Below are positions 17,299 through 47,162 of a stretch of DNA of 50,224 nt, in pieces. Location: positions 1-50,224 of the IMG/VR virus record IMGVR_UViG_3300038548_000420, one strand, 5' to 3'. Made by a program: the position numbers and the translations under genes. The DNA comes from a virus. How positions within the stretch are numbered: the stretch's first letter is position 1; each line of letters opens with the position of its first letter. The notes under the pieces were generated by a model, which ran no database searches, had not been told where the DNA came from, and was given only the letters and a program-made list of their open reading frames with translations.

Positions 17299-20200
17299 CC
17301 TTTGATATTGGAAATGGTGTCCATGCCGAATGGCAAACGCTGGATCTTTTCACCGGCGTTCAAAACGCGGCGCAAGTATCGGTAGTCACAACACCGCTGA
17401 CGGGATTGCCAGACTCATGGTCCAGGGTTGTAAAGTTTGAGGGTAACGGCGCTGAGGGGGCGGTCGCTTATCCATTATTTGCGGAACGCACCAATGTAGC
17501 TTTGCCCACAGCAAATCATCTTATTTGGAGCGGATATTTACGCTGGACTGATGTTACGCCTGCGACGGCAGGTTTAATTTTAATAATTGGACTAAGTGAT
17601 GAAACGCCTTTCAACCTGGGCGCTTTGCAAATTCTGTTAGAAACAAATGGTGACCTTACGGTCACGGATGACGACAATAATACAATCGCGACCATTACTC
17701 CAGCAACGCACGGTCTGACAAACGATACATGGCACCTTTTTGAGATAAGGTATCTGCCAAGCGCCACCGTTGGTGAAGTGCAAATCTGGATAGACAAGAC
17801 TGAAGTTCTGGCAAATCAAACAAGTCAAGTGCTTGCCTCTTATGACGATATGAAAGTTGTTATTTTACAAGGCCCTACCGACACAGGGCAGGATATGTTT
17901 TTTGCCGGCGCGCATTCGCGGATCAATAGCACTGTTGTCGGCGACGTGCTGAACGATGATTTCGAGTGGGTAGGGCCATTCCAAACAGATACCGCGCATG
18001 ATGCTACCAGTGACTCCGGGGTTGGGGTAGGTAATGTCACTGGCGACACTCTAAATACTGGCACTTGGGGCATGATTAGTGAGACGCCAATAGATGCTGG
18101 TGCTGATCATAGGGCATTATACAGCGATGGCCCTCAAACTGGCGGTGTCAATCTTGATGCCGGTAGTAGGCAAGGCCCGGACGGCGATAGTCGCATTGAC
18201 GGCGATGCTGAAATTATTGGGATGCAGTTTGGCTTCTTTGGTCGTCGTGGCAATGGCCCCGCAACTGTTCATACGATTGTAGCGGGAAACAAGACCGACC
18301 AGTACGACGCCGCTGAGAGGTTTGAGCCCGCCCTGACAACCAGTACCTTAATGTATTTCCTCGTCACTGAGGATGCCGGGGCTGTTCCTCTTTCTACTCA
18401 AGACGGTTTGCTTGGTTTCGAAACGGACGGTAGCAGAGTTATTGAAAGCACTGAAATCGGCATGTTCATTTTGCATGTACCGAGCTCGGGCCCGCCGCCG
18501 GTATCCATTCTCGCGACATCGACCCACGCCGCTACGCTCAGCCTAGTCGTCAACAAGAATCTGGCGGTCGCCCACGCGGCGGCGGCCTCGCTTTCGAGGC
18601 TGCTAGATCTCGCGAAAACTATCGCGGCGAGCCATTCCGCGGCCGCGCTCTTGGCGACCAAGACCTCGAGGTTCTTGACGCTGACCGCGAGCCATTCCGC
18701 GGCCGCGACGCTCACGCAACCAGCGACTTTCCGGCGCACGCTGGCGGCCACGCATACCGCCGCCGCGACGCTGACCCAGCCGGCCGCCTTCCGGCGCACC
18801 CTGGCCGCGGCCCATGCCGCCGGCGCCACTCTTTCCGATATCACCGCGCGCTTCCGCACGATCGCCGCCAGTCATGCCGCGGCCGCAACGCTGACGAAGC
18901 GGCAATTCGAGACCCTCGCCGCCTCAGCCACCCACGCGGCGAGCCTGACAACCTCTCTCATTTTCAGCCGGACGCTCGCCGCCTCGCATTCGGCCGCCGC
19001 GTCCTTGACGCTAATCCCTGGCAAGACCCTGGCGGTCGGGCACTCGGCGGCCCCGAGCCTGACGCGAATCGTGAATCGATTCAGGACTCTCGCCGCCGCC
19101 CATGCCGCCGCCGCCACGCTCACCCAGCCCGCGACTTTCCTACGCACGCTCGCGGCGACGCATTCGGCCGCCGCCTCTCTCGGCGTGATCGAGATGCAAG
19201 TCGAGGGCTTGCCCGTTCCCCATATCTCTACACCGAGCCTGACTACAATCACGAGCCGCTTGCTCTCGATCCTGGCGGCGACGACCTCGGTTGCGACGCT
19301 GACCCAGCCCGCCACATTCCGGCGAACGCTCGCGGCCTCAGCGGCGCACGCGCCGGCGCTCAGTAGTCAGCTCACGATCAACCGGACGCTGGCGGCGGCG
19401 CACACGGCGGCGGCGAGCCTGACAATCGAGCCACGGAAGAATCTCGCCGTCTCGCATACCGCGAGCGCGTCGCTTACGCTCGAAAAATCACTATTCCGCT
19501 CGCTCTTGGCGACGACCACGCATGCACCGACGCTGACCAAGAAATCGTTCGTGACTCTAGCGGCGAGCCATTCCGCGGCGGCGAGCGTGACGAAGCGCCA
19601 ATTCCGCACGCTGGCGGCGGCTCATGTCGCCTCGGCTTCGGTGGTCATGCGGCAATTCCGCACGCTGGCGGCGGCGCATGCGGCGGCGGCCACGCTCACC
19701 CAGCCCGCGACTTTCCTACGCACGCTCGCGGCGGCTCACGTCGCGGCGCCCGCGCTGACCCCGCTGAGAACGAAGACGCTGGCGGCGAGCCATACCTCGG
19801 CGGCTACCCTCTCGCTCTTGCTCGACCTGAAGTTGACGCTCGCCGCCTCGCACACGGCGACGCCAACGATCATGACGGTGAGCGGCGAATCTGTCGCGAT
19901 CATGGCGGCCCATGTCGCGGCCGCGAGCTTGACGACTCAAGTCAGTCGCTTCCGATCGATCCTCGCCTCTCATTCCGCGGCCGCCTCTCTGTCGCCGATT
20001 GCGTCGCGCTTGATCTCGATCCAGGCCGTGCATTCGGCGAGCGCGAGCCTGACCAAAAAGATCGGTGAAACCCTCACCGCCGCTCATTCGGCGAGCGCGA
20101 GCCTCACTACCCTCCTGACGATCCCGCAGGCGCTCACAGCGGGCCACACAGCGGCCGCGACGCTAACGAGGCTCTCCCAGCTCAAGCGATCCCTGATAGC

Positions 20201-20993
20201 GGCTCACACAGCGGCCCCGACGCTCACCACGCTCGCCCAGCGCGTCCGCACACTGACAGCGGCCCACGCCGCCGCGGCGAACCTCGCGACGATCACCGCG
20301 CGCAAGCTGACGCTTTCGGCCGGGCATTCCGCCGCGGCTGTTTTGAATACCTCAACAGCATTCCACAAGACGCTCGCCGCCTCGCATGCCGCCGCGGCCA
20401 CGCTTTCGCCGGCGCTGACGGTTCACCGAACGCTGGCGGCCACGCATTCGGCGGCGGCGACGCTCGGCACGGATCGAACGGCTCGCGAGACCGTCTCAGC
20501 CACTCACTCGGCCGCCGCCTCTATCGTGATCGTGGTCAGCCGCAAGCGCTCGATCCTCGCCATCGCCTCGCATGCCCCGGCCCTCGCCAAGAAATCGGCC
20601 GTGACTCTGGCGGCGTCGGCCGTCCATTCGGCAAATTTGATCGCGCTCGCCGGAACCCTTCTCCAGGCCAACTCGGTCCACGCCCCGACCTTGACGAAGA
20701 AGCTGAGCTTGGGGCGCACGGCTCTTTCGGTCGCGGCAAGTCATGCCCCCACGCTGACGGTTATAGCGAGCCGCGAGATCTCGATCGCCGTGGCGGCCAC
20801 CCATTCGGCGAGCCTCTCGACGGCGCTCACGATAAAGAGCACACTGCTCGCGTCGGTTTCGCACGCCCCGTTCCTCTCGCCGGCATATCGACCGACCGGG
20901 AACGTCACCGATTTGCTGGGCGGGCGCGAGCTGATCACAGATCTTGAGGGCGGCAGAGAGCTCGTCACGGAACTGATCGGGAGCGTCAAATGA
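17295..20993 (+). CDS. Giant repetitive tail-fibre / receptor-binding protein
   Basis: 1232 residues. Residues about 1-405 look like a concanavalin/laminin-G-like module followed by a beta region: HLIWSGYLRWTDVTPATAGLILIIGLSDETPFNLGALQI, TWHLFEIRYLPSATVGEVQIWIDKTEVL, DDFEWVGPFQTDTAHDATSD. From about 405 to 1195 the protein is a run of roughly 20-residue repeats with consensus TLAASHSAAATLTxxxxxxR. The end carries a small repeat, LLGGRELITDLEGGRELVTEL. DNA of the N-terminal module is clearly lower in GC than the repeat region, indicating different origins. Long repetitive shafts plus a sugar-binding-type head fit a host-recognition fibre; which end faces the host is not decided. It overlaps genes on both sides by four bases. 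Confidence 0.8.
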   Translation: MTFDIGNGVHAEWQTLDLFTGVQNAAQVSVVTTPLTGLPDSWSRVVKFEGNGAEGAVAYPLFAERTNVALPTANHLIWSGYLRWTDVTPATAGLILIIGLSDETPFNLGALQILLETNGDLTVTDDDNNTIATITPATHGLTNDTWHLFEIRYLPSATVGEVQIWIDKTEVLANQTSQVLASYDDMKVVILQGPTDTGQDMFFAGAHSRINSTVVGDVLNDDFEWVGPFQTDTAHDATSDSGVGVGNVTGDTLNTGTWGMISETPIDAGADHRALYSDGPQTGGVNLDAGSRQGPDGDSRIDGDAEIIGMQFGFFGRRGNGPATVHTIVAGNKTDQYDAAERFEPALTTSTLMYFLVTEDAGAVPLSTQDGLLGFETDGSRVIESTEIGMFILHVPSSGPPPVSILATSTHAATLSLVVNKNLAVAHAAAASLSRLLDLAKTIAASHSAAALLATKTSRFLTLTASHSAAATLTQPATFRRTLAATHTAAATLTQPAAFRRTLAAAHAAGATLSDITARFRTIAASHAAAATLTKRQFETLAASATHAASLTTSLIFSRTLAASHSAAASLTLIPGKTLAVGHSAAPSLTRIVNRFRTLAAAHAAAATLTQPATFLRTLAATHSAAASLGVIEMQVEGLPVPHISTPSLTTITSRLLSILAATTSVATLTQPATFRRTLAASAAHAPALSSQLTINRTLAAAHTAAASLTIEPRKNLAVSHTASASLTLEKSLFRSLLATTTHAPTLTKKSFVTLAASHSAAASVTKRQFRTLAAAHVASASVVMRQFRTLAAAHAAAATLTQPATFLRTLAAAHVAAPALTPLRTKTLAASHTSAATLSLLLDLKLTLAASHTATPTIMTVSGESVAIMAAHVAAASLTTQVSRFRSILASHSAAASLSPIASRLISIQAVHSASASLTKKIGETLTAAHSASASLTTLLTIPQALTAGHTAAATLTRLSQLKRSLIAAHTAAPTLTTLAQRVRTLTAAHAAAANLATITARKLTLSAGHSAAAVLNTSTAFHKTLAASHAAAATLSPALTVHRTLAATHSAAATLGTDRTARETVSATHSAAASIVIVVSRKRSILAIASHAPALAKKSAVTLAASAVHSANLIALAGTLLQANSVHAPTLTKKLSLGRTALSVAASHAPTLTVIASREISIAVAATHSASLSTALTIKSTLLASVSHAPFLSPAYRPTGNVTDLLGGRELITDLEGGRELVTELIGSVK
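18500..20880 (+). repeat. About 40 tandem ~60-bp coding repeats in the fibre gene
   Basis: The repeat unit encodes TLAA-[ST/A]-H-x-AAA-x-L-T plus 5-7 variable residues. Unit length varies slightly by in-frame changes. Some stretches are identical at the DNA level: the segment coding ATLTQPATFLRTLAA is the same around 19111-19152 and 19690-19731, which points to recent duplication or conversion within the gene. Many units carry CATTC/CATGC-GGC-GGC runs, which create long spurious frames on the other strand. Confidence 0.85.
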
Positions 20994-21352
20994 CCAAATA
21001 CAACCAAGATTTCCGGATGAAATCGGGCGACGTTCGGACCCTCCGATATACTTGCAAGGACGATGATGATGTATCGGCGCTGGACTTTACGCTCGGGAGC
21101 CTGAAATTCGGCATGACGCCGTTGAAAAAGTTCGATGGCTTGCCGACCTCGATCTCGAAATCAAGCGGCTCCGGTATCAGCATAGAGGGAGCGCCGACCC
21201 TCGGGATTGTGCTCGTCGCGCTCGACGCCGCCGACAGCGACGCGCTCAAAGGCGACTTTGTCGCTGAGCTGGAATATGTGGACGGGACCGGGCGGCTTTC
21301 GACGCTGGCGACCGGAATCGCAAAGGTCGTCGCCGATATCAGATTCCCCTGA
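20990..21352 (+). CDS. BppU-like / fibre-associated beta protein
   Basis: 120 residues: MTKYNQDFRMKSGDVRTLRYTCKDDDDVSALDFTLGSLKFGMTPLKKF...GIVLVALDAADSDALKGDFVAELEYVDGTGRLSTLATGIAKVVADI. The pattern (polar start, then strand pairs describing a value/limit and ending in a GxVxVxxDI strand) is that of the N-terminal domain of baseplate upper proteins and related fibre accessory proteins. It is last in the operon and overlaps the fibre stop by four bases. Its stop meets a convergent gene with no terminator visible. Confidence 0.6.
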   Translation: MTKYNQDFRMKSGDVRTLRYTCKDDDDVSALDFTLGSLKFGMTPLKKFDGLPTSISKSSGSGISIEGAPTLGIVLVALDAADSDALKGDFVAELEYVDGTGRLSTLATGIAKVVADIRFP

Positions 21353-36089: not shown

Positions 36090-37079
36090 CTAGCGGGGGT
36101 TCTTTTTCTTCGGCGCCGGCTTGCCCTCGCCGGTGCCTCTGATTTTGTTTCGATGCTCATAAGTATTGGGATTAAAAGTTTTTCCCTTGGGTTTCCCGGC
36201 CGCTGGCGGCTTGTCGGGGTTCCAGTGCTTCTCGCGGAATTCCTTCGTGCTGATCTTGCCGTGCTCAGCCTCGTAATCTCGTTTCTTTTTATAGAATGCG
36301 GCGTCGCGTCTGGCGGGCCCGCCGGCGCCCCACCCCTTGCCGGCGACGATCATCTTGTCGGCCTCGGCGTCCGTCTTGGCGCCGGGAATGGGGCGCCCTG
36401 TGCTGGTGGCGCGAACGATTTTCCCGGTCTTTGGATCTACCGCCGGCTGGCGAGATCCGCCGGGCTTGGCCCCGCGGCCGAGCTCGCTCAACATGCCAAG
36501 CGATAGCCACGCCCGCTTGCGATCTTGCCAAAGCCCGTCGCGGGCCATGAATACCGTGAACGGAACGAACCCGAATCGCTCGGCCAGAGTTTCCCGGTCG
36601 CCCTCGCCATCGTCGCCGTCCCCGAGTGATGTCCCGCCGAGCAACTCGGCCAGCTCGTCGCCGCCAAATCCGGTAAGGTCAAGATCGAAGCCCTCGCTGT
36701 CGAGCCACGCCAATTCCTCGACCAGCATGTCGATGTTCCATTCGGAATTTTCGGTGAGCTTGTTGTCGGTGATCACATAGGCGCGGATTTTCTTTTCTGA
36801 CCAACCGCGCGCCCAGATGCAGGGCATGAGATCGGATTTCAGCTCCCCCCGTTCCAGCATGCGGGCGGCGGCGAGCCATCGGCCATGCCCCGCCCGGATC
36901 ATGCGGGACTCGTCGATCAGGATGGGCATGGTCCAGCCAAACTCGAGGATCGAGGCCGCTATCTGGTCGACTTGGTCAGGCGAATGAACCCTCGGGTTGC
37001 GAGGGTTCGGTACGATCTGATCGTGAGCGATCCACTCAAGTTCCGAGATCGGCCAAGCCGGTGCCTTTGGTTTTGCCAT
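36090..37079 (-). CDS. ParB/sulfiredoxin-fold protein associated with DNA methylation
   Basis: 329 residues. N-terminal ParB-like domain: DQIVPNPRNPRVHSPDQVDQIAASILEFGWTMPILIDESRMIRAGHGRWLAAARM, then KKIRAYVITDNKLTENSEWNIDMLVEELAWLDSEGFDLDLTGFGGDELAELL, the linker normally joining ParB-like domains to DNA methylases in phages. Here the methylase is a separate gene just downstream. The C-terminal part is basic with AFYKKKRDYEAEHGKISTKEFREKHWNPDK and a disordered end, unlike the usual fusion. The GHGRWLAA motif matches GHxRxxAA of the NTP-binding ParB fold. Confidence 0.8.
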   Translation of the reverse strand: MAKPKAPAWPISELEWIAHDQIVPNPRNPRVHSPDQVDQIAASILEFGWTMPILIDESRMIRAGHGRWLAAARMLERGELKSDLMPCIWARGWSEKKIRAYVITDNKLTENSEWNIDMLVEELAWLDSEGFDLDLTGFGGDELAELLGGTSLGDGDDGEGDRETLAERFGFVPFTVFMARDGLWQDRKRAWLSLGMLSELGRGAKPGGSRQPAVDPKTGKIVRATSTGRPIPGAKTDAEADKMIVAGKGWGAGGPARRDAAFYKKKRDYEAEHGKISTKEFREKHWNPDKPPAAGKPKGKTFNPNTYEHRNKIRGTGEGKPAPKKKNPR

Positions 37080-37297
37080 CAAATTCCCCCCTCATCCGCA
37101 GCGAGCTCGCGCAAGCGCCTTTTTCCGTTTTCGGTCAGCTTGAATATTGCCATACAGCATCCGCAGCGCGCGCCCTCTTGGCGGGCGAGACCGACCGATA
37201 CGAGCGCCGATGCGTGTCGTATCATGATCGCCGCACCATTCTCGGCCGCTTGCGATACCCGCCTCAGAGCGAAAAGCGTGAGGCCCGGATCACTCAT
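37079..37297 (-). CDS. Small winged-helix-like protein
   Basis: 72 residues, MSDPGLTLFALRRVSQAAENGAAIMIRHASALVSVGLARQEGARCGCCMAIFKLTENGKRRLRELA. The final TENGKRRLRE is a typical wing-helix ending of MarR/HTH-type small phage proteins. GCC-CGCC supplies three close Cys. Overlaps the HNH stop by four bases and the ParB-like start by one. Confidence 0.6.
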   Translation of the reverse strand: MSDPGLTLFALRRVSQAAENGAAIMIRHASALVSVGLARQEGARCGCCMAIFKLTENGKRRLRELAADEGGI

Positions 37298-44890: not shown

Positions 44891-45319
44891 TCAGGCTGCT
44901 TTCGGAACGCCGCCCGGCGTGATCGTCATGCGTGTGCCGTCTTTCTCGAATGCGGCAATCACCCCGGCGGCGGTCTCCTTCTTGGTCGGGTCGACCGGCT
45001 TCCCGAGGCCCTCGGCCGCCGCCTTGACGGCGGCATGCTGCCCGAGCGGCGTCGTCGCCAGCATGCCAAGGGCCGAGAGATAGAGATCGAGCAAAGCCTC
45101 TTGTTCAGATCGCTCGTCAGAGCTCAGCTTTCGCAAGCGGACGCATCGCCGCATGGTCCCCGTATCGAAGCCTTGCGATTTGGCCTCGCCGTAAACGTCC
45201 TTGATCGCCTCCGTGGCCTCGGCCTTGTCTTCTTCAAGTCGCTCGATTCGCTCGATCAGGGATTTTAGTGGCCCGGCCGCAAGAGATGTTGTGTTGGTGG
45301 TTTCTGTCGCCTGTTGCAT
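44891..45319 (-). CDS. GapR-like (DUF2312) nucleoid protein with C-terminal extension
   Basis: 142 residues. LKSLIERIERLEEDKAEATEAIKDVYGEAKSQGFDTGTMRRCVRLRKLSSDERSEQEALLDLYLSALGM is DUF2312, whose cellular form GapR is an alphaproteobacterial protein that encircles overtwisted DNA ahead of replication forks and RNA polymerase. The remaining 55 residues (QHAAVKAAAEGLGKPVDPTKKETAAGVIAAFEKDGTRMTITPGGVP) are not part of the cellular protein. It opens the replication-type operon behind a good promoter. Confidence 0.88.
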   Translation of the reverse strand: MQQATETTNTTSLAAGPLKSLIERIERLEEDKAEATEAIKDVYGEAKSQGFDTGTMRRCVRLRKLSSDERSEQEALLDLYLSALGMLATTPLGQHAAVKAAAEGLGKPVDPTKKETAAGVIAAFEKDGTRMTITPGGVPKAA

Positions 45320-45421: not shown

Positions 45422-45629
45422 GGATGCGAGTGCCGATACTTTGCGATCTTTTCAACCGGCCCACCGAGCCCGCCCCTCAAAATCGCTGTCGGTAGAAGAC
45501 TGTTTTCGGCGCTTTTGCTGGCGCGGCCAAACCGGGAGCCAGATGGCCGCCGGCAATCGCGATCCAGCGGCAGAGGATCGAGGGACGATTCAGCTATTCA
45601 TAGGATTTATTGACAATCAAGATCGGGCA

Positions 45630-45658
45630 TTGCCAGAGCGGGGGATCTCGCCTAATCT
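45630..45658 (+). promoter_or_regulatory. Candidate promoter for the 45.7-50 kb operon
   Basis: TTGCCA, 17 nt, TAATCT, about 32 bases before the ATG at 45690. A TTGACA at 45610-45615 has no -10 partner. Divergent from the 45354 promoter. Confidence 0.4.
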
Positions 45659-45689
45659 GATACGAATCCCAACTTTTCGGATAGGGACG

Positions 45690-45929
45690 ATGCCCGACGA
45701 CGATCCCCAAGCGCGCGAATCAGCGCCCACTCCTTTCGAGCTGGTCACCAGCCGAATCCATGAACGAGAGCCGCCGGCGCCCGATCCGCCGGCGCCAGAC
45801 GGATTTGAGTGGGTTACGGCTGACGAGTTTGTGCGGCGGATCGGATTTCGCCTCCGGGGCGATCGCCAGCAAGCCTACGAGGACTTCGTGTTCATGCTGA
45901 CGGTGCCGGCAGAATTCGAGAGGGGCTGA
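45690..45929 (+). CDS. Hypothetical protein before the repeat array
   Basis: 79 residues from ATG with AGGGACG upstream; a longer frame exists but runs through the promoter. MPDDDPQARESAPTPFELVTSRIHEREPPAPDPPAPDGFEWVTADEFVRRIGFRLRGDRQQAYEDFVFMLTVPAEFERG. A disordered Pro/Asp/Glu head precedes a small helical domain. Its stop codon lies inside the first repeat unit of the array. Not recognised. Confidence 0.6.
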   Translation: MPDDDPQARESAPTPFELVTSRIHEREPPAPDPPAPDGFEWVTADEFVRRIGFRLRGDRQQAYEDFVFMLTVPAEFERG

Positions 45930-46296
45930 GCCATGAAGAGAGAGAGCGCCATACGACATGAGCGAGCCAAACTCCTCGAGAGAACCAGCGAAATCGAGCG
46001 AGCCATAAAGTGGACAGAACCAGGATGGCGAGCGAGCCATCAAGCAAGAGAGAACCAACCTCCGAGAGCGAGCCAGAAGGTGGGAGAGACCCACGAGCGA
46101 GCCACGCAACGCGAGAGAACCAAGTCCCATGAGCGAGCCAGCCGCAGACGAGAGGGCCATAACGGGTGTGCGAGCCAACTGCTCTGACTGGACCATAGCC
46201 CACGAGCGAGCCGATGAAAGTGAGAGGACCATCATGTTCGAGCGAGCCAAGATATTGGACAGGGCCATTCTACAAGAGCGAATCCAGTGTGGGCCA
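45924..46296 (+). repeat. Decamer array, block 1 (about 22 units)
   Basis: A 10-base core, alternately near GAGCGAGCCA and GAGAGAACCA, each followed by 7-9 variable bases. Core ends (the A of CCA) fall at 45933, 45951, 45969, 45987, 46005, 46022, 46039, 46057, 46075, 46093, 46104, 46122, 46140, 46159, 46177, 46195, 46213, 46231, 46249, 46267, 46286, 46296. Fifteen of the 21 steps are exactly 18; the others are 17, 17, 11, 19, 19 and 10. The indels would break any reading frame, so a coding role is unlikely here. The B form equals the gene leader. Confidence 0.95.
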
Positions 46297-46523
46297 TGAT
46301 CACCTTCCTCACCTTCGCATGCGGCGTCGCCCTCGGTTTCCTGGGCGCCTACGCGCACATGATCTGGCGGCGGCGCAAACCGATTTTGGAGCTGCTCAAG
46401 AAAGCCGACGCTCTGGAATCAGCGCGTCAGACTTTGCGGAACATTCTGCGAGTTCCCAAGATCGAGCACGCTCACAAATTGGCGAGCCGCACGCTGAACG
46501 AAATCGAGAGCCAGCGGTCATGA
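46296..46523 (+). CDS. Small membrane protein inside the repeat array
   Basis: 75 residues from ATG 46296 (GTG 46287 is an alternative). MITFLTFACGVALGFLGAYAHMIWRRR is one membrane span with a basic stop, then a helical cytoplasmic tail (PILELLKKADALESARQTLRNILRVPKIEHAHKLASRTLNEIESQRS). The start lies at the end of the last unit of block 1 (TGTGGGCCATG), and the C-terminal codons already include the first unit of block 2. Not recognised; single-span peptides of this kind occur as phage accessory or lysis-control proteins. Confidence 0.65.
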   Translation: MITFLTFACGVALGFLGAYAHMIWRRRKPILELLKKADALESARQTLRNILRVPKIEHAHKLASRTLNEIESQRS

Positions 46524-46783
46524 GAGAACCATAACGCTAGAGCGAGCCGATGCGATCGAGCGGACCATGATGCACGAGCGAGCCATGAGGTTGGAGGGAA
46601 CCGTTCTACAGGAGCGAGCCGTTAGTCATGAGAGAACCAAGACGACAGAGCGAGCCGATGCGATCGAGAGCACCACAGTCGAGGAGCGAGCCATTACATC
46701 AGAGCGGACCAATGCACCAGAGCGAGCCATGTCGAAAGCGAGAACCATGAATGCCGAGCGAGCCAACAACCGAGAGAGGACCA
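46504..46783 (+). repeat. Decamer array, block 2 (16 units, exact 18-bp period)
   Basis: Core ends at 46513 and then every 18 bases without exception to 46783 (16 cores, 15 intervals). From 46531 on, B-type (GAGAGAACCA, GAGCGGACCA, GAGGGAACCG) and A-type (GAGCGAGCCA/G) alternate strictly, giving a 36-base super-period. The final core, GAGAGGACCA, is the leader of the gene that starts at 46788. The plus frame from 46567 is open and would code a hexapeptide repeat (ERAxxxERTxxx) that stops in an ATGA overlap with that gene. Confidence 0.95.
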
Positions 46784-46787
46784 TTAT

Positions 46788-47162
46788 ATGAGAGCGGCGG
46801 CGACATCAGAGCGGGAATTTAACCGCCATCTCGGCCGGCGCATTCGCGATCGCCGCGTGGCGAATGGCGCCTCGCTCGATATCATGGCGCGATGGCTGAT
46901 GATCTCACCACAACAATGCGCGAAATATGAGCTCGGATCGTCGCGGATCCACCCCCACAAACTGTTGATCTTGGCCATCCAATTTGGCGTCCCGATCAGC
47001 GACTTTTTCCTCGGGCTCCCTGGCGCCGAAAACCTCGGCGGCGATCCCGTCGCCCAGCTTAGGGAGTGCCGGGCATTCATTGCAAGGTGGGGGCTTGAAC
47101 ACCATGACCCGCGCGCTAAAGATGCGGCTCAAAAGATTCTTAGCGGGAACCCAGCTCGATGA
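46788..47162 (+). CDS. XRE-family HTH regulator next to the array
   Basis: 124 residues. EREFNRHLGRRIRDRRVANGASLDIMARWLMISPQQCAKYELGSSRIHPHKLLILAIQFGVPISDFFLGL is a complete Cro/C1-type HTH (five helices; recognition helix around SPQQCAKYELG). The C-terminal VAQLRECRAFIARWGLEHHDPRAKDAAQKIL is helical and could mediate dimerisation. It is a natural candidate to bind the repeat array that ends five bases before its start. Overlaps the next gene by four bases. Confidence 0.85.
   Translation: MRAAATSEREFNRHLGRRIRDRRVANGASLDIMARWLMISPQQCAKYELGSSRIHPHKLLILAIQFGVPISDFFLGLPGAENLGGDPVAQLRECRAFIARWGLEHHDPRAKDAAQKILSGNPAR

Follow-up and report, generated by a model that had tools for sequence, protein, structure and literature searches.

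Repeat locus and neighboring genes

The window analyzed here is the whole 50,224-nucleotide stretch of IMG/VR virus record IMGVR_UViG_3300038548_000420 (positions 1 to 50,224), which comes from a tailed phage and carries two blocks of short alternating repeats on the + strand, one on either side of a small membrane-protein gene (Table 1). The stop codon of the gene upstream marks the start of block 1, the far end of block 2 extends into the gene for an HTH regulator, and no rho-independent terminator was found on the + strand 3′ of either block. A GapR-like DNA-binding protein gene (44891-45319, - strand; Pfam GapR_DNA-bd, 2.7e-29) is divergent from the array operon, a ParB-like gene (36090-37082) matches ParB/methyltransferase PHROGs, and two 60-bp tandem repeats (18678-18826 and 20136-20267) lie inside a 1232-aa open reading frame with no PHROG match. 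Terminal repeats are absent from the contig, which is cut within a tape-measure gene on the left and within the gene located after recT on the right. Searches with the HTH, RecT, and GP88 proteins found no relatives of the window phage, a terminase search returned only distant relatives (best 42%), and blastn of the array region against cultured phages gave no match.

Table 1. Positions of the two repeat blocks and the adjoining genes in the window
Feature	Position	Strand	Details
Upstream ORF	45441..45929	+	162 aa, start uncertain, no confident family
TIGR array block 1	45924..46285	+	10 edge-spacerA-loop-spacerB units; from sequence
Block 1 unit starts	45924, 45960, 45996, 46030, 46066, 46095, 46131, 46168, 46204, 46240	+	
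Block 1 unit lengths, in order			36, 36, 34, 36, 29, 36, 37, 36, 36, 36 bp
5′-truncated edge opening block 1	45928..45933	+	GAGCCA, over the TGA stop of the upstream gene
3′-truncated edge closing block 1	46276..46281	+	GAGCGA
Small membrane-protein gene	46293..46523	+	76 aa, between the blocks; weak LapA_dom match below cut-off
TIGR array block 2	46504..46801	+	8 units, each exactly 36 bp
Block 2 unit starts	46504, 46540, 46576, 46612, 46648, 46684, 46720, 46756	+	
5′-truncated edge opening block 2	46508..46513	+	GAGCCA, within the last codons of the membrane-protein gene
Last loop repeat	46774..46783	+	GAGAGGACCA, 14 nt 5′ of the HTH gene ATG
HTH regulator gene	46788..47162	+	HTH_3/Xre-like, directly after block 2
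3′-truncated edge closing block 2	46792..46796	+	GAGCG, inside the start of the HTH gene

Within 45924-46783 (860 bp), 27 ten-mers lie at most one mismatch from either of two core sequences, against an average of 0.7 and at most 4 in dinucleotide shuffles of the same interval (n = 300), and the other 49 kb of the window, both strands included, has 11 one-mismatch matches and no exact match; the alternating decamer array reported in the initial annotation is therefore real. It is built from an edge repeat of 10 nt, GAGCGAGCC[A/G], and a GAGAGAACCA-like loop repeat of 10 nt, separated by mutually unrelated spacers of 8 nt. Edge and loop both start with GAG, all internal repeats end in CC[A/G], and 15 of the 16 internal edges read exactly as the edge consensus. 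Counting the truncated copies at the ends, block 1 has 11 edge and 10 loop positions and block 2 has 9 and 8, and the alternation, previously described as strict only in part, holds without exception in both blocks when degenerate copies are included in the alignment.

The resulting 18 units (10 + 8) bear out the proposed true period of 36 bp: 15 are exactly that long, both spacers are 8 nt in 15 of the 18, and the others, of 34, 29, and 37 bp, are all in block 1, the 29-bp unit (46066-46094) having one spacer short by 7 nt. The 18-bp spacing of cores holds throughout block 2 (16 of 16 intervals), while in block 1 the earlier count was corrected to 16 of 20, with irregular intervals of 17, 17, 11, and 19 bp. 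The array bounds were also revised, to a start at 45924 (45928 for the truncated edge), a block 2 start at 46504, and a last truncated edge extending to 46796.

The sequence of the last loop repeat, GAGAGGACCA, also occurs ∼13-16 nt 5′ of the ATG of five small + strand genes (28958, 29180, 29479, 30009, and 32749), and these genes probably share it as a strong ribosome-binding sequence, one similar to the loop repeat. Because it precedes these several other phage genes, the copy at the end of block 2 may double as a ribosome-binding site.

Identification as a TIGR array

TIGR-Tas is a phage guide system related to snoRNAs that was described in 2025 (Faure et al., PMC12045711). In TIGR arrays, edge and loop repeats of 8-12 nt alternate, with short spacers and 36-nt RNAs, a 5′-truncated edge repeat lies at the start and a 3′-truncated one at the end, box C is CCA, the loop repeat is A-rich, and a rho-independent terminator after the array is typical, not defining (PMC12045711). 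The window has two distinct alternating 10-nt repeats, spacers in the ∼8-12 nt range within units that fit a ∼36-nt RNA, truncated edges at the ends of both blocks, boxes C and D common to edge and loop, and an A-rich loop repeat as in the published arrays. Its box D is GA(G), unlike the UG of TasR arrays, and edge and loop agree with each other.

The array of Salicola phage CGphi29 (SpTIGR, TasH; NC_020844), whose tigRNAs were sequenced by Faure et al. and which is experimentally processed (PMC12045711), is nearly identical in its repeats. The CGphi29 edge is AAGCGAGCCA against GAGCGAGCCA in the window and its loop is AAGACAACCA against GAGAGAACCA, differences of one and two bases, respectively; both arrays have 8-nt spacers and a 36-bp unit, and the CGphi29 repeats (AAG...CCA) agree in box D between edge and loop, as they do in the window. 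The two loci differ in that CGphi29 has tas just upstream of its array and a terminator after it, whereas the window has no tas in view and neither block is followed by a terminator, and in that two blocks flanking a membrane-protein gene are the window's arrangement. TIGR-TasA loci, including TasA-TasParB, likewise have 10-nt repeats (PMC12045711), and TasA is the family adjoining arrays with the window's own edge repeat, the window itself being without a detected tasA.

Other known repeat classes fit less well. The region has no Rfam match even at an E-value of 1, and literature matches to the exact core string looked, judged by title and among the matches listed, like chance or primer matches. 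CRISPR arrays also combine constant repeats with variable spacers, but theirs is a single repeat of 25-36 nt with spacers of similar size, against alternating 10-nt repeats and 8-nt split spacers here, which rules out a CRISPR array. The initial annotation was right to set the CRISPR layout aside, very probably right for iteron and stoperator layouts too, and wrong in finding no known layout, since a TIGR array matches exactly. The identification as a TIGR array is firm, and the best explanation of the whole, very probably the correct one, is a TIGR dual-repeat guide-RNA array of the SpTIGR-like, 8-nt-spacer kind in a tailed phage.

Related arrays in other contigs

Patterns built from the window cores matched 94 viral stretches in IMG/VR, with ∼1 expected by a rough estimate, and an edge-to-edge pattern matched at least 119 viral stretches together with 49 metagenome-assembled genome (MAG) or genome stretches, among which several single-match bacterial hits are probably due to chance. 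More than 100 viral and MAG contigs besides the window have its edge repeat. In 863 edge-to-edge units of 36 bp, information is confined to the two repeats and the 8-nt spacers are essentially random, in agreement with the earlier proposal that cores are selected and spacers free. The accompanying proposal of selection on spacing also stands, with the spacing belonging by homology to an RNA guide, so that the argument from helical turns is not needed.

Since one frame is open through block 2 and 18 bp correspond to six codons, the repeats might be thought to encode hexapeptides (ERAxxxERTxxx). A coding reading is rejected as extremely improbable on three grounds: block 1 changes frame several times, arrays in other phages have 37-bp units with loop repeats longer by one base, and the edge repeat is fixed at third codon positions, with the spacers free.

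Some variation occurs within the family. In the clade of L053 (1249-1680) and L164 (2246-2820, both in array orientation), the loop ends in ACA (GATAGAAACA) and the edge in CCA, so that box C differs between the two repeats. An array with the window's edge repeat also lies in the genome of a cultured bacterium, on a scaffold of Acidobacteriaceae bacterium KBS 96 (L144, 7811-7983), and an IMG/VR record that carries tasA (L059) may be a prophage of this bacterium.

The Tas partner protein

One dominant protein family of ∼273 aa adjoins the arrays, occurring at 89 loci at a median of 33 bp from the array, on the array strand in 83 cases and on the opposite strand in none. This family is regarded as TasA-like on sequence grounds, because it matches the solved TasR (9mty; 2e-13) and TasH (3e-10) in phmmer searches as well as Pfam Transposase_20. 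A profile of the family matched 140 of the 241 fetched pieces, and arrays lay on the strand of the TasA-like gene in 133 of the 134 compared, with 96 within 300 bp.

These associations bear on the possibility that the downstream HTH protein or a partition protein binds the repeats as DNA sites (operator, centromere, or origin iterons), a reading favored by direct repeats at fixed spacing, the HTH gene after block 2, and ParB-like genes near arrays at some loci. The near-uniform strand agreement with tasA is instead what is expected for RNA, and alternating repeats with truncated edges are shared with a system that is processed into RNA. The HTH protein, proposed initially as the reader of the array, has a homolog at one of the 241 loci (L188), on the strand opposite its array, and arrays elsewhere are accompanied by the Nop-domain TasA-like protein instead; GC skew, suggested as a check for a replication origin, has no sharp turn at the array. 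Replication iterons and stoperators consist of a single type of site, bound by an initiator or repressor whose gene lies nearby. On this evidence the iteron or operator reading is regarded as highly improbable, and the HTH gene is considered to lie outside the TIGR system. A family of ParB-like proteins (∼228 aa), encoded on the same strand near arrays at L205, L159, and seven other loci, resembles the TasParB association of Faure et al. (PMC12045711).

A complete TIGR-Tas system comprises a tas (Nop-domain) gene in addition to the array, whose RNA is cut into 36-nt tigRNAs for tandem-spacer DNA targeting. The repeats of the window are linked to Tas in relatives, in the 140 pieces noted above, and no tas gene was found in the 50-kb contig with the TasA profile (best E-value 5), with that profile widened by three cultured-phage Tas proteins, or with the Nop and Transposase_20 Pfam models. 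As the contig is cut at both ends, this absence cannot be extended to the whole phage, and for the same reasons the window is classed with TIGR arrays instead of TIGR-Tas loci.

A decaying remnant that has lost tasA and has no present function would account for the missing gene, for the unit that lacks 7 nt and the two others of 34 and 37 bp, and for the membrane-protein gene, which occupies a place where tasA can lie, between two arrays, at several related loci. Such decay is unlikely, given that the share of exact 36-bp units is near the family rate (934 of ∼1105 edge pairs at 35-38 bp), that all but one of the internal edges keep the consensus, and that other contigs retain intact arrays tens of kilobases from tasA.

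Arrays distant from tasA

Contig sequence was obtained for 18 other records, which were picked for some array away from tas and therefore give no frequency. Many of them bear multiple arrays, in both orientations. Eight arrays are spread over the 11-82 kb interval of one 116-kb contig whose tasA lies at 30-31 kb, and in a 104-kb contig the arrays are located at 83 and 98.6 kb and tasA at 23 kb; in the array-first survey, the distance from array to tasA reached ∼75 kb. Three records with terminal repeats, which are likely complete (G016, G021, and G023), all have tasA, and five others (16-89 kb), in which it was undetected, have no terminal repeats and may be fragments. In the 89-kb record G011, a short array of four edges lies at 21048-21165 and a tas-like gene was undetected.

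These records show that distance between an array and tas is nothing unusual, in line with the window array. The window contig, with no matching Tas effector gene in view, suggests that a phage can carry guide arrays at a distance from their protein partner or in its absence. The window array may thus be distal or orphan, acting in trans.

Spacer turnover and targets

Between phages with TasA proteins 70-96% identical, nearly all spacers are replaced and the repeats stay fixed. Spacer pairs were shared in 66 of 75 units at 100% TasA identity, in 3 of 21 at 90-96%, in 1 of 44 at 80-90%, and in none of 126 at 70-80%. The comparison of related phages called for in the initial annotation therefore came out in its favor, with repeats that stay, spacers that change, and no whole-unit sharing by recent slippage. 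L160 and L177 (TasA 92% identical) share three complete units, of which two appear in the reverse order, a pattern that would fit movement of units as cassettes. In the window, the spacer ATGCGATC is present twice, 108 bp apart, which indicates that local duplication also occurs.

Candidate targets were sought as spacer A followed by the reverse complement of spacer B with a gap of 0-2 nt, a geometry derived in the present analysis from published 3′ overhangs and one of four that were tried. Self-matches in 19 contigs numbered 0 exact (0.1 expected) and 77 with two or fewer mismatches (79.8 expected), which gives no self-targeting above chance. In all fetched sequence (1943 units), the predicted geometry gave 17 exact paired matches, at least one of them in another array, against 8.4 ± 2.1 in 12 shuffles, and 416 one-mismatch matches against 401. 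The small exact-match excess was not accepted as evidence of targets, as it has no counterpart at one mismatch, another geometry gave a similarly small excess, and four geometries had been tried. No targets of the window units were found in the sequences searched.

By analogy with the studied systems, we infer how the array may work in its phage. The + strand of the array would probably be transcribed together with the neighboring genes, a Nop-domain Tas protein would bind both repeat types, which have GAG...CCA ends in common, and a host RNase would cleave within the edge repeats. Each ∼36-nt RNA product would then carry two 8-nt guides, each predicted to base-pair with a different strand of an adjacent ∼16-bp DNA target. 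The Tas effector would most likely be encoded on the unsequenced rest of the same phage genome, or alternatively be supplied by another element in trans.

A broader proposal, offered tentatively as a possibility short of an even chance, is that TIGR arrays can be free-standing. Phages would keep them at a distance from tas, in either orientation and within other operons, or would have no tas of their own, and would use a Tas supplied in trans by the rest of the genome, a host prophage, or a co-infecting phage, with gain, loss, and reordering of whole units, as cassettes, outpacing the evolution of the effector.

Implications

The window holds a TIGR array of known type in an unusual setting, with tas absent from the recovered sequence. 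TIGR arrays were originally found by looking within 5 kb of tas genes (PMC12045711), and an array-first search starting from the window finds arrays that a tas-first search misses, reveals phage genomes with multiple arrays, and yields relatives close enough for spacer turnover to be followed. The targets of spacers and the ways in which arrays change were named as open questions by the discoverers of the system (PMC12045711), and the array-first results bear on both. With an array that has the same edge repeat in the cultured Acidobacteriaceae bacterium KBS 96, a laboratory test is within reach.
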